64,000 nt of DNA, taken from an uncultured Draconibacterium sp. GTDB taxonomy: Bacteria; Bacteroidota; Bacteroidia; Bacteroidales; Prolixibacteraceae. The stretch is taken from contig NZ_OY776414.1 in the NCBI RefSeq assembly GCF_963675585.1, forward strand, positions 2,955,001 to 3,019,000, given 5' to 3'. Shown here piece by piece: positions 47,046-55,152 of this stretch; positions within the stretch are counted from its first letter, which is position 1, and each line of letters starts with the position of its first letter. The notes under the pieces are model-generated. The model searched no databases. It saw nothing but the letters and a program-made list of their open reading frames with translations, and was not told the DNA's origin. The translations under genes were made by a program, and so were the position numbers.

Positions 47046-47885
47046 CTATATTCGGTATGCCCACTCTTCCACCTCTTTTAAATAATCCATCGGACTCTGG
47101 TATTTAAATTTATAGTCCAATGTTTTTATCAATTTTTCGCTGTTTACGATCTTGTAATTTTCCTGTGTTTTTGAAAAAACCGGGGCCGGCAATTCACTTA
47201 TCTGAGCTGCTTTGCTGTAAAATTCTCGTTTTACAGGATGTTCCGGACTTGAGGCATTAAACACTTCTCCCCAAATATCCTTTTCAATAATTTGGGTAAT
47301 AATCCCCACGCAATCATCCCGGTGAATCAGATTAACAGGAGTTTCTCCGGCAACCTCCTGTTTATACTTCAGAAAATTTGCAGGATTTCTGTTGTAACCG
47401 ATCAAACCCCCAAAACGCAGCACAGTAGTTTTAAAGTTAGGATTCCCCAAAAGCAGCTTTTCCGCTTTTATCAAGGCCCGCCCGCTTTGTTTCTCAGGGC
47501 TGCCCTCATCGCCTTCTTGCACTTCTTTGTTTTGTGATTCGTAAACCGAAGTAGATGAAATAAAAAGCACTTTAGAAATTCCAATCTCTTCTGCTTTTAT
47601 AGCAATCTGACTTATTTTTTGCGGATACGACTCTTCTACACAATCCGTTCGGGTAGGTGGAATTGAAACAATTAATACATCAGTACTAAAAAAACTGTTG
47701 TAGTCTACTTCCACTCCCTTCGGTTTTACTTTTACATAAAAAGTACTTATTCCGGTCATCTCCAATTCGTTGTAACTTTGACTCGAACTGGTTGAACCTT
47801 TTACATTCCATCCTTTGCGAAGCAGGGATTTGCCAAGGGCAGTGCCCAGCCATCCACATCCTAATATTGAAACAGTTGTACTCAT
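47046..47885 (-). CDS. NAD(P)-binding SDR/epimerase-family protein
   Basis: 279 residues with a Rossmann start (ILGCGWLGTALGKSLLRKG), a YxxxK-region variant (SSTSVYESQ) and LRFGGLIGYNRNP. It belongs to the extended/atypical SDR group with YeeZ-type proteins. Substrate unknown. Its place between cysI and cobA suggests a link to sulfur or siroheme metabolism, but that rests on context only. Confidence 0.78.
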   Translation of the reverse strand: MSTTVSILGCGWLGTALGKSLLRKGWNVKGSTSSSQSYNELEMTGISTFYVKVKPKGVEVDYNSFFSTDVLIVSIPPTRTDCVEESYPQKISQIAIKAEEIGISKVLFISSTSVYESQNKEVQEGDEGSPEKQSGRALIKAEKLLLGNPNFKTTVLRFGGLIGYNRNPANFLKYKQEVAGETPVNLIHRDDCVGIITQIIEKDIWGEVFNASSPEHPVKREFYSKAAQISELPAPVFSKTQENYKIVNSEKLIKTLDYKFKYQSPMDYLKEVEEWAYRI

Positions 47886-52418: not shown

Positions 52419-52451
52419 AAAAAAAAAGCCCTCCTGCAACTGCAGAAGGGC
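52419..52451 (-). terminator. Attenuator terminator of the sulfite/siroheme operon
   Basis: On the minus strand GCCCTTCTGCA and TGCAGGAGGGC pair over 11 positions (one G-U), followed by nine T's. It lies after the leader ORF and before the DUF2061 gene. Its 5' arm can instead pair with TGCAGAAGG in the leader ORF (52493-52501). Confidence 0.85.
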
Positions 52452-52478
52452 GAACAAATATTAGTAGTTATAAGCTAT

Positions 52479-52577
52479 TTACATATCAATTTCCTTCTGC
52501 ATAAAATCGGCACAACAACACATATACATCATACATGTCATGGAATTCAATTTTATTTCAGAAGAATTTATTTTCAT
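52479..52577 (-). CDS. Cys/Met-rich leader peptide of the sulfite-reduction operon
   Basis: A 32-residue ORF from the ATG at 52577 to the TAA at 52479. Its core reads MTCMMYMCCCADF, with four cysteines, three of them consecutive TGT codons (52512-52520), and seven methionines. Ten bases past the Cys triplet, TGCAGAAGG (52501-52493) is a perfect 9-base complement of the 5' arm of the terminator at 52419-52451. In the classical model, ribosome stalling at Cys codons when cysteine is scarce leaves this segment free to disrupt the terminator. Rapid translation to the stop covers it and lets the terminator form. The genes controlled make sulfide for cysteine, so the logic fits. Cys codons rule out chance less strictly than the combined layout does. 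Confidence 0.82.
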   Translation of the reverse strand: MKINSSEIKLNSMTCMMYMCCCADFMQKEIDM

Positions 52578-52622: not shown

Positions 52623-52903
52623 AATCTTTATTTCAGACAAAAAAGACTTTTAATGATTTTTTTTTATCCAGTCTAAATAAATTAACAAAACATACAAATA
52701 ATCATTCCCTTCATGCTTTCAACTGTATTTTTTTTGGTTCTTTTTGCAGCAAAATTCAAGGCATAGGCAAGTACGCTTATTTATAATGATTTCAGACAAT
52801 AACATTTATTAACAAAACCCGCTTAAACACTGTGATATAGAGCATTAACACAAATCAGCAATTAGGGCCGGATAATATATTTTTTCATGCTGATTTTAGC
52901 TTG

Positions 52904-52995: not shown

Positions 52996-55152
52996 ATGAA
53001 GGTTTATAAAACTGAAGAAATTCGGAACATTGCTTTAATTGGTAATGCCGGCAGTGGGAAAACCACCCTTGCAGAAGCTATGCTTTTTGAGGGTGGAATT
53101 ATAAGTCGCAGAGGTGAAGTAACCGCAAAAAATACGGTTTCTGACTACACACAAATCGAGCAGGATTATGGCAATTCTGTTTTTTCTACTCTATTATATA
53201 CTGAATACAACGGGAAAAAAATCAACATTCTTGATACTCCCGGAATGGATGACCTATGCGGAAGTGTTGTTCAGGCATTGAGTGTAACTGCATTAAGCTT
53301 GATTACTATAAATGCATCGAACGGTGTTGAAGCCGGAACAGAAGCAGCGGGTCGTCAGGCCGCAGCAGCCGACACTCCACTTGTTTTTGTTTTTAATCAG
53401 TTAGACCACGATAATTCAAATTTCGACAGTACTTTAGACCAATGTAAATCAGCTTTCGGTAACAAAGTAACCGTAGTACAATATCCGGTTGATGCCGGCG
53501 CAACTTTCTCTTCAATTATTGATGTTTTGAAGATGAAAATGTATAAGTATCCAAAAGGCGGAGGTACTCCTGAAATTTTGGACATTCCGGCTTCGGAAAA
53601 AGACAAAGCCGACGAATTGCACAACGAACTGGTTGAGATGGCAGCCGAAAACGAAGAAGCTTTAATGGAGCTTTACTTCGACAAAGGTACGCTTAGCGAA
53701 GACGAAATGCGCAAAGGGATTAAACTGGGTATGTTGGAACGTGGAATTTTCCCTGTATTCTGTACCTGCGCCAAACAAAACATTGGAGTTGGTCGTTTGA
53801 TGGAGTTTATTACCAATATTTCTCCGGCACCAAGCGAGAAAAAAATGACAGAAATAGTAAAAGGCAAAGAAGTGAAGATGGATGCTTCTGACACCCCAAG
53901 TATTTTTGTTTTTAAAACTTCTGTTGAATCACACGTTGGCGAGATTACATACTTTAAAGTAATGTCGGGAACCATTACAGAAGGTTTGGATTTAGTAAAT
54001 AGCAAATCGGGAAATAAAGAACGTTTATCACAGGTATTTGTATCGGCCGGTAAAAACCGCGAGAAAGTTGAAAAACTGGTAGCAGGTGATTTAGGTTGTA
54101 CCGTAAAACTAAAAGAAACCAAATACAACCAGACATTATCGCCAAAAGAAGCCGGTATAAAGTTTAAGGAAATTACATTCCCTGCATCGCGCCACACAGT
54201 TGCCGTTAAGGCAAAAAATGATTCGGACGATGAAAAAGTAGGAGAAATTTTAAGTAAGATTAAATACGAAGATCCAACCTACGTAATTGAATATTCAAAA
54301 GAATTAAAACAATTGCTGGTTCACGGACAGGGCGAATACCACTTGAACGTTTTGAAATGGTATTTTGATACCGTTTACAAAATTGATGTTGATTATTTGG
54401 CTCCAAAAATTCCTTATCGTGAAACGATTACCAAGTTTGCCCAGGCTGATTATCGCCATAAAAAACAATCGGGCGGATCAGGACAATTTGGTGAGGTACA
54501 TTTAATTATCGAACCATACGAACCAGGCTCAGAACCTAAAAAAATGTTCAAGTTTGGCGACAAAGAGCAAAAATTATCTGTTCGTGCCGTTGAAGAACAT
54601 GAACTACCCTGGGGTGGAAAATTGATTTTCTGCAACTGTATTGTTGGAGGTTCTATCGACGCTCGTTTCCTTCCTGCCATTCTGAAAGGAATTATGGAAA
54701 AAATGAACGAAGGCCCGCTTACCGGATCGTATGCACGTGATATCCGCGTATATGTGTACGACGGTAAAATGCACCCGGTTGATTCAAACGAAATTTCGTT
54801 TAAACTGGCCGGACGTAATGCATTTAGCATGGCCTTTAAAAATGCCGGTGCAAAAATTCTTGAACCTATTTACGATCTTGAAGTTTGGACACCATCAGAC
54901 CGCATGGGTGATGTAATGAGTGACCTTCAGGGACGTCGTGCCATGATTATGGGTATGGGTTCGGAAAAAGGCCTGGAGAAAATTTCGGCCAAAGTTCCGT
55001 TAAAGGAAATGAACAAGTATACCACATCCCTGAGTTCGATTACAGGTGGACGCGGTGTATTTAAAATGAAATTCGACGATTACGAAAAAGTACCTGCCGA
55101 TGTTCAAGACGAATTGCTGAAAGCATACGAAGCAGAGCAGGAAGAAGAATAG
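52996..55152 (+). CDS. fusA2: EF-G paralogue (EF-G2 type) with altered GTPase site
   Basis: 718 residues with the EF-G domain order, but the nucleotide site differs from the housekeeping copy. G1 is GNAGSGKT (16-23) instead of [10 protein letters not shown]3 is DTPGMDD (80-86) with Met84 in place of the catalytic His. G4 is NQLD (134-137) instead of NKMD. Domain IV/V are well kept (RYKKQSGG-like HKKQSGGSGQFGEV, YDLEVWTPSDRMGDVMSDLQGRRAMIMGM). In Bacteroides a comparable EF-G2 supports translation with little GTP hydrolysis during carbon starvation; the same role here is inferred. It has its own promoter and terminator. Confidence 0.88.
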   Translation: MKVYKTEEIRNIALIGNAGSGKTTLAEAMLFEGGIISRRGEVTAKNTVSDYTQIEQDYGNSVFSTLLYTEYNGKKINILDTPGMDDLCGSVVQALSVTALSLITINASNGVEAGTEAAGRQAAAADTPLVFVFNQLDHDNSNFDSTLDQCKSAFGNKVTVVQYPVDAGATFSSIIDVLKMKMYKYPKGGGTPEILDIPASEKDKADELHNELVEMAAENEEALMELYFDKGTLSEDEMRKGIKLGMLERGIFPVFCTCAKQNIGVGRLMEFITNISPAPSEKKMTEIVKGKEVKMDASDTPSIFVFKTSVESHVGEITYFKVMSGTITEGLDLVNSKSGNKERLSQVFVSAGKNREKVEKLVAGDLGCTVKLKETKYNQTLSPKEAGIKFKEITFPASRHTVAVKAKNDSDDEKVGEILSKIKYEDPTYVIEYSKELKQLLVHGQGEYHLNVLKWYFDTVYKIDVDYLAPKIPYRETITKFAQADYRHKKQSGGSGQFGEVHLIIEPYEPGSEPKKMFKFGDKEQKLSVRAVEEHELPWGGKLIFCNCIVGGSIDARFLPAILKGIMEKMNEGPLTGSYARDIRVYVYDGKMHPVDSNEISFKLAGRNAFSMAFKNAGAKILEPIYDLEVWTPSDRMGDVMSDLQGRRAMIMGMGSEKGLEKISAKVPLKEMNKYTTSLSSITGGRGVFKMKFDDYEKVPADVQDELLKAYEAEQEEE

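Follow-up and report, generated by a model that had tools for sequence, protein, structure and literature searches.

We found that the sulfite reductase operon of an uncultured Draconibacterium species, a member of the Prolixibacteraceae (Bacteroidota), is headed by what is, in all likelihood, a ribosome-mediated transcription attenuator of the trp type, acting on a DUF2061-cysG(N)-cysJ-cysI-siroheme operon within the 64,000-nucleotide stretch of DNA that we analysed (the window). The sequence and its comparison with relatives establish a leader ORF, its codons, alternative RNA helices, a terminator and linkage to the genes. On this basis, a trp-type mechanism is very likely the right one for cysteine, and the attenuator probably reads methionine besides cysteine.

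Leader, alternative helices and terminator upstream of the operon

Attenuators of the trp/his type combine a short ORF containing regulatory codons, four RNA segments (1 to 4) and an intrinsic terminator, and a ribosome that finishes the ORF covers segment 2. The window leader shares the ORF with regulatory codons, the four segments, the terminator and the placement of the stop codon, while differing in its Cys (and Met) codons, its occurrence in Bacteroidota and its position before a sulfite reductase operon. It is a 32-codon ORF on the minus strand (52577–52479) that translates as MKINSSEIKLNSMTCMMYMCCCADFMQKEIDM followed by a stop, and its Met/Cys core is recognizable in an alignment of 33 leader sequences (A1). 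Three consecutive TGT codons (Cys codons 20–22; 52520–52512, minus strand) are the putative main regulatory codons and a fourth Cys codon lies at 52535–52533. Cysteine being the end product of sulfide production, the short leader thus has end-product codons in a run.

All RNA segments lie on the minus strand. Folding and the comparison of leaders identified segment 1 (TTCTTCTG plus ATAAAATTG; 52566–52548) as the partner of segment 2 (CGATTTTAT plus TGCAGAAGG; 52510–52493). Segment 3 (52451–52441), recognized by conservation of its pairing, is both the 5′ arm of the terminator and the 3′ arm of the antiterminator; the last 9 bases of segment 2, TGCAGAAGG (52501–52493), are the perfect 9-bp complement of CCTTCTGCA (52449–52441). 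The terminator hairpin formed by segments 3 and 4 (52451–52428) has 10 bp, 7 of them GC, and a folding energy of −18.4 kcal/mol; it is conserved and is followed by a T9 tract (52427–52419). An intrinsic terminator precedes the first gene, and the 2:3 antiterminator is mutually exclusive with it. The region from 52600 to 52419 folded more stably than its dinucleotide shuffles (z = −3.31; 1 of 200 shuffles equally good). The next long gene upstream, encoding an EF-G-like protein (52996–55152), is on the plus strand, so there is no preceding gene for the terminator to end and it serves only the leader transcript.

After the terminator and a gap, the operon continues on the minus strand with genes for a DUF2061 membrane protein (52321–52064; PF09834, E = 3.6e-22), a CysG N-terminal-like protein of siroheme synthesis (52067–51606; TIGR01470), the sulfite reductase flavoprotein CysJ (51597–49789; TIGR01931) and hemoprotein CysI (49653–47953; TIGR02041), a gene at 47046–47885 without a Pfam match at 1e-5, and a uroporphyrinogen-III C-methyltransferase for siroheme (47039–46314; TIGR01469), the four TIGR matches being above their cut-offs. 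The first-pass annotation had described the 32-codon ORF, the TGT triplet, the 9-bp pairing, the terminator and its T9 tract; each was recovered at the same minus-strand position, and the placement it had proposed, ahead of cysJ, cysI and siroheme genes, was borne out by these NCBIfam and Pfam assignments.

Upstream of the leader, TACATTTG (52622–52615, minus strand) matches TAnnTTTG, reported as the −7 promoter consensus of Bacteroidota (PMC9723704). A possible −33 match, TTTG, is found at 52641–52638, and because the spacer is only 15 bases the promoter call is tentative. Just after TACATTTG, at the expected transcription start, lies a palindrome, GTGACAAAAGTCAC (52608–52595, minus strand), that could be an operator or a 5′ hairpin and that we take to resemble a Crp/Fnr-type site. 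The only match to GTGAYAAAARTCAY in this genome is the palindrome itself; inspection by eye showed similar sequence in relatives.

Ribosome position and predicted antiterminator formation

We modeled the leader by placing a ribosome footprint on it and calculating equilibrium folding before and after segment 4 was included. With the ribosome at Cys codons 20–22 of the window leader, the predicted probability of the antiterminator helix, P(2:3), was 0.97–0.98 before segment 4. It was 0.91–0.98 wherever the ribosome stood between codons 2 and 22, and then fell to 0.77 at codon 23, 0.26 at codon 24 and 0.00 at codons 25–32, with 0.05 at the stop codon. Therefore, the Cys codons are the last stops that leave segment 2 fully free, and the ribosome model alone does not single them out, since every earlier codon from the second onward is equally permissive. 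As in trp/his-type attenuators, a ribosome at the stop codon masked segment 2 in the model.

The same calculation on 36 leaders, some of them near-identical, yielded mean P(2:3) values of 0.36, 0.50 and 0.61 at three core codons in succession and of 0.025 at the stop codon (highest 0.34, in L002); without a ribosome the mean was 0.37. Three leaders kept a low P(2:3) at the final Cys of the core (0.06 in L010 and L280; 0.26 in L281). Although 1:2 pairing is conserved, the early P(2:3) of the window leader was still predicted to be 0.90 without a ribosome; unlike in trp, the ribosome-free model does not favour termination, and 1:2 pairing thus does not clearly enforce it. When segment 4 was included, the terminator's equilibrium probability was 0.97–1.00 at every ribosome position tried, so that antitermination would need kinetic trapping.

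We infer a mechanism in which ribosome stalling and a kinetic race underlie the responses to cysteine and to methionine. When charged Cys-tRNA (and probably Met-tRNA) is ample, the ribosome would reach the stop codon and cover segment 2, whereupon segments 3 and 4 would form the terminator and transcription would end ahead of the genes. Scarcity of charged Cys-tRNA would instead halt the ribosome at the Cys codons and leave segment 2 free to pair with segment 3 before segment 4 has been made; the terminator would then come too late and sulfide production would be switched on. A shortage of methionine probably acts alike, through the Met codons interwoven in the Cys run.

Conservation of the leader and its pairings

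The cysI gene was present in 24 of 37 genomes of the genus, and all 24 carried the leader motif 2.5–3.6 kb upstream of cysI on the same strand, as judged by coordinates, with a terminator after the leader. The presence of leader and terminator in every cysI-bearing genome indicates more than chance. Among the 13 genomes without cysI, the motif was matched only in G441 (75% complete), and one of its matches is a leader of the cysJI type with DUF2061 downstream. An apparent exception, L009, was rejected as such: its leader sits further upstream, before a hemA gene. Draconibacterium aestuarii, a close relative, also carries the leader, and the DUF2061 gene of G007 is 94% identical to that of the window. 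That an ordinary terminator merely follows a chance short ORF could be argued from a 13-kb scan, where terminator-like sites showed no excess over shuffles (14 versus 12.3); the linkage in 24 of 24 genomes and the conserved codons and pairings contradict this explanation, to which we give almost no credence.

We looked for relatives without the Cys codons or the pairing, which would have spoken against the attenuator, and found the opposite: codons, pairing and terminator are conserved. The core of every A1 sequence closes with CMCC (YMCCC for the window leader), preceded by gaps whose lengths are multiples of three. The window species is the outlier with MMYMCCC, the other 32 sequences having CMCC without a third Cys; the third Cys of the triplet described in the first-pass annotation is thus private to the window species. 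Across 30 distinct leaders, Cys was encoded by TGT 115 times and by TGC 9 times, as compared to 20 and 13 times in nine genes of the window.

We examined the pairings in 27 leaders selected by their core motif, the window's included, using shuffles that keep base composition only. The terminator was present in all 27. Duplex energies were lower than in shuffles both for 2:3 (z = −1.8 to −5.1, mean −3.3) and for 1:2 (z = −0.8 to −5.8, mean −3.8), and a leader's own segments paired better than segments combined across species (permutation P = 2e-4 for each helix, with kinship ignored). Single leaders were weak for 1:2 (L129 and L015, with 38 and 20 of 200 shuffles equally good) or for 2:3 (L010, with 11 of 200).

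A refined alignment (A2) retained 24 of the 33 A1 sequences, with the 5′ ends of L001 and L096 trimmed. The nine left out were L113, L131, L147, L149, L159 and L171, where segment 2 was misaligned, and L205, L277 and L278; the first seven of these remain in the 27-leader test, and L277 and L278 in the 36-leader ribosome model. In A2, the 2:3 antiterminator was paired in 192 of 192 cells, including one compensatory pair changed from A-U to G-C in 8 sequences (columns 97–144: 13 A-U, 8 G-C and 3 G-U). The 1:2 helix was paired in 83.1% of cells, with 19 cells changed on both sides versus a shuffle mean of 10.6 (columns 15–95: 14 U-A, 6 C-G and 4 U-G), and the 3:4 terminator in 99.6%. With kinship ignored, these percentages were matched by 0, 0 and 45 of 500 shuffles for 1:2, 2:3 and 3:4, respectively. 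Again ignoring kinship, pairs changed on both sides were not above shuffles (the observed number was reached by 262 of 500 shuffles for 1:2 and by 426 for 2:3), nor were further pair types (398 of 500 for 1:2 and 499 for 2:3). Sliding 1:2 by +1 column left the number of doubly changed cells the same, with far fewer paired cells. In L205, the leader's tail is in a different reading frame and GCAGAGGAA is retained, which means that the tail is conserved as RNA.

Met/Cys leaders before other genes

A DNA motif for MMCMCC (or MMYMCC) occurred in 4 of 395 genomes of the class: the window species' own and three with leader ORFs before cysH-cysD or metY, gene calls that NCBIfam confirmed for L024 and L025. 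The own-genome metY and cysH have no such leader upstream. Only 2 of 119 class genomes had cysI, too few for a class-wide survey of that gene. In four loci (L024, L027, L028 and L206), a tandem pair of Met/Cys leaders precedes cysH or metY.

A wider scan of genome contigs returned at least 119 motif stretches, at least 66 of them in Bacteroidota or Balneolota and at least 53 elsewhere. Using tblastn, relatives of sulfur genes were found within 4.5 kb downstream of 42 of the 119 matches listed; among these were 20 cysJI operons, 14 metY and 4 cysH genes, the rest being weak OsmC/cysK-class matches (L111, L123 and L189) and a distant one in Aneurinibacillus (L194). Classified by leader and first gene, the 66 listed Bacteroidota and Balneolota matches comprised 21 cysJI, 15 metY, 4 cysH, 6 OsmC/cysK, 6 TonB-receptor and 2 AhpC/TSA-like loci, with 12 others, some probably there by chance; one cysJI locus (L091) and one metY locus (L202) are truncated by the locus end. 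Family searches were run on single examples: the receptor in L127, AhpC/TSA in L192, OsmC in L111 and cysteine synthase in L189. The L189 cysteine synthase scored above its cut-off, and the cysteine-synthase-family gene after OsmC in L111 below the cut-offs. Leaders are not universal, being present at 4 (L056, L065, L066 and L068) of the 17 closest cysH homologues (L055–L071).

Several of these loci have a form of their own. A second Met/Cys leader (..MMCMCC.M..HVE..), which has a terminator to itself, was seen in Maribellus, Sunxiuqinia, Saccharicrinis and their relatives; the gene that follows is of the OsmC family (L105, L111, L114, L123, L124 and L276) or, in L189, cysK directly. In Flavobacterium and Myroides (L121, L127, L148, L176, L193 and L162), the leaders end in MMCMCC(CL), a stop codon closing the run, and lie about 50–115 bases before a TonB-receptor-like gene, with no obvious terminator; Pfam was run on L127, and L121 is truncated by the locus end. 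The receptor's cargo may be a sulfur compound. Mucilaginibacter leaders that end in SMMCMCCC(C) (L099 and L192) precede a gene for an AhpC/TSA-family protein, assigned by Pfam in L192.

A terminator was found within 300 bases of 43 of the 66 Bacteroidota and Balneolota matches versus 8 of the 53 elsewhere, among the matches listed. Of those 53, 43 lie inside open frames of at least 150 codons and are mostly due to chance. Six have the look of a leader with a terminator: L109, L135, L141, L151 and L155 from the other 10, and L203 from the 43. All are from Bacillota except L155 (Acholeplasmatales). Downstream are genes for MetN-, MetI- and MetQ-like proteins in L135 (MetI above its cut-off), for a protein with cystine-binding-like and MetQ-like parts in L151, for a cystine-binding-like protein in L155 and for an amino-acid ABC permease in L141; ABC-transporter genes thus follow Met/Cys leaders in four Bacillota-like records, being of the methionine or cystine type in three. 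Against base-composition shuffles, L109 and L151 showed strong 2:3 pairing and L203 and L135 fair pairing, and that of L141 (66 of 300 shuffles equally good) and L155 (18 of 300) was unconvincing.

This diversity bears on whether codons or the peptide are sensed. A nascent Cys/Met-rich peptide might itself sense a metal, the redox state or a thiol and arrest the ribosome, leaving the RNA logic unchanged. Within the family, the amino acids of the core show strong conservation, a CxxCxCC spacing could bind metal, and the gene after the Mucilaginibacter leader L192 is of the AhpC/TSA family. However, the number and spacing of Cys vary freely between families (CCCC, CMCMCCCCC, CCCCCCC), as codon counting predicts, and most linked genes that can be named serve the synthesis or uptake of cysteine or methionine. 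We therefore consider a peptide sensor improbable.

metY leaders and SAM riboswitches

SAM riboswitches (RF00162) bind SAM directly and control sulfur amino-acid genes, as the leaders probably do. The Rfam scan of the window returned no family at its cut-off, including RF00162 and Bacteroid-trp (RF01692), which is presumably a trp leader. Across the class, 75 of 395 genomes had metY at E = 1e-150 or better, and we defined a candidate leader as any ORF in the 900 bases upstream that has three or more Cys within eight codons. Such Cys-run ORFs preceded metY in 53 of the 75 Bacteroidia genomes, as compared to 9 of 75 on the antisense strand and a mean of 5.9 (maximum 12) in 20 dinucleotide shuffles. 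The other 22 loci had no candidate, and some of the 53 look weak (e.g. L228, L229 and L256). A SAM riboswitch was found within 1 kb upstream of metY in 48 of 75 loci, by a scan whose strict filters may lose weak riboswitches; G318 (L227), where the riboswitch is 1.6 kb upstream, was counted as without one, and likewise G401.

The 53 loci contain 56 leaders, and in 46 of these the last Cys is at most 3 residues from the end. The terminator finder placed a terminator before metY for 9 of the 56, the expectation from base-composition shuffles being 0.0. Where a leader was present, terminators occurred at 0 of 38 riboswitch loci versus 7 of 15 loci without a riboswitch (Fisher P = 4e-5, with kinship ignored). 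Between the first and last Cys, a stretch defined by Cys alone, 43 of 94 non-Cys residues are Met, versus 69 of 1517 (4.5%) elsewhere in the leaders; Met is therefore tied to Cys in the metY leader runs.

Riboswitch-linked leaders had fewer Met as a trend only (1.39 versus 2.47 per 10 residues; Mann–Whitney P = 0.079, or 0.085 by genus), and two or more Met were found in 16 of 38 versus 10 of 15 others (P = 0.13). Within the Cys-defined stretch, the comparison with the 38 riboswitch loci gave P = 0.0065 for the seven terminator-type loci and P = 0.050 for all loci without a riboswitch, under groupings chosen post hoc. A simple swap of Met codons for a riboswitch is contradicted by the Balneolaceae, where a Met/Cys leader, a SAM riboswitch and metY follow in series in 8 of 8 loci tested with Rfam (L094, L119, L146, L150, L160, L185, L199 and L204). 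The single SAM riboswitch found in the window species' own genome (L291:860–971) lies before a homocysteine-biosynthesis gene (PF01837), and a small ORF containing MCM (MKKLHYKLFFTSYLHGANMCMRWRF, followed by a stop) was seen by eye between the two.

These counts also touch on whether methionine is read at all. The same mechanism could respond to cysteine only, with the ATG/TGT repeats building a local hairpin over the run rather than sensing Met. The core does fold on itself, with columns 48–54 and 67–73 pairing in 23 or 24 of the 24 A2 sequences; in the L006 core (MACMVCMCC), Val replaces one Met, and 10 of the 38 riboswitch-linked metY leaders have no Met in a 10-residue sensor window. Against this stands the recurrence of Met, which is the preferred partner of Cys in the leaders of many other families and appears again in the Bacillota leader before MetN/MetI/MetQ-like genes, where a shared hairpin would not be expected. 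We accordingly regard a cysteine-only attenuator as a real though unlikely alternative to one that reads both amino acids.

Discussion

Relative to the first-pass annotation, segment 1, the recurrent Met/Cys signature and a predicted reach far past the cysJI operon are additions. The window leader belongs to a far larger group of leaders that are predicted to read cysteine and probably methionine. Several known systems resemble the window leader in part. Cys-run leaders of sulfur genes were reportedly described in a mycobacterial study. For the cys operons of Actinobacteria, Cys-run leaders are described in which the run lies close to the stop codon and no terminator was found to be conserved (PMC1262725). 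Both systems place a run of Cys codons ahead of sulfur genes, but the window run is internal, with 10 codons between it and the stop, and belongs to a leader with a conserved terminator and antiterminator; the terminator-free metY leaders resemble the Actinobacterial ones more than the window leader does. The Rhodobacterales uORFC-8-2, located before cysS, shares tandem Cys codons, a terminator and a proposed ribosome-mediated attenuation (PMC8632094). It belongs to another phylum and another gene (DUF2061, cysG(N), cysJ and cysI, not cysS, lie downstream here), and its description gives two Cys codons without a Met/Cys mixture.

The earlier statement that the phylum held no described example needs narrowing. 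Leader-peptide attenuation of amino-acid operons has been described in general terms for Flavobacterium psychrophilum (PMC9723704). Small ORFs that resemble leader peptides have been described in Bacteroides thetaiotaomicron (PMC7366714), and Bacteroid-trp, which had no match in the window, is an RNA motif of Bacteroidetes too (PMC2864571). What stands is the narrower statement: our literature search, covering titles and abstract openings of mostly non-subscription papers, found no Met/Cys leader, no cysteine leader in Bacteroidota and no account of leader peptides adjusting the supply of cysteine and methionine in Bacteroidota; some may be listed in supplementary material, for instance the F. 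psychrophilum tables.

Taken more broadly, the leaders could belong to a widespread sulfur regulon of Bacteroidota and Balneolota, whose leader peptides count both sulfur amino acids in at least three builds, with a renewed origin in Bacillota-like bacteria before methionine and cystine uptake genes. The first build would be a Met/Cys leader with an intrinsic terminator (cysJI, cysH-cysD, OsmC/cysK and some metY). The second would be a terminator-free Cys-run leader beside a SAM riboswitch, as in most of the Bacteroidia metY leaders found, where the riboswitch may take over the methionine side. The third would join both, as at metY in Balneolaceae. Because Met-bearing leaders and SAM riboswitches stand side by side there, we lowered our rating of this regulon from slightly better than even to an even chance.

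If true, a codon-counting sensor of both sulfur amino acids, variously joined with SAM riboswitches, would tie together the control of cysJI, cysH, cysK and metY across a large phylum of environmental and gut bacteria, giving meaning to many short Cys-rich ORFs. One leader should then respond to two different tRNAs.
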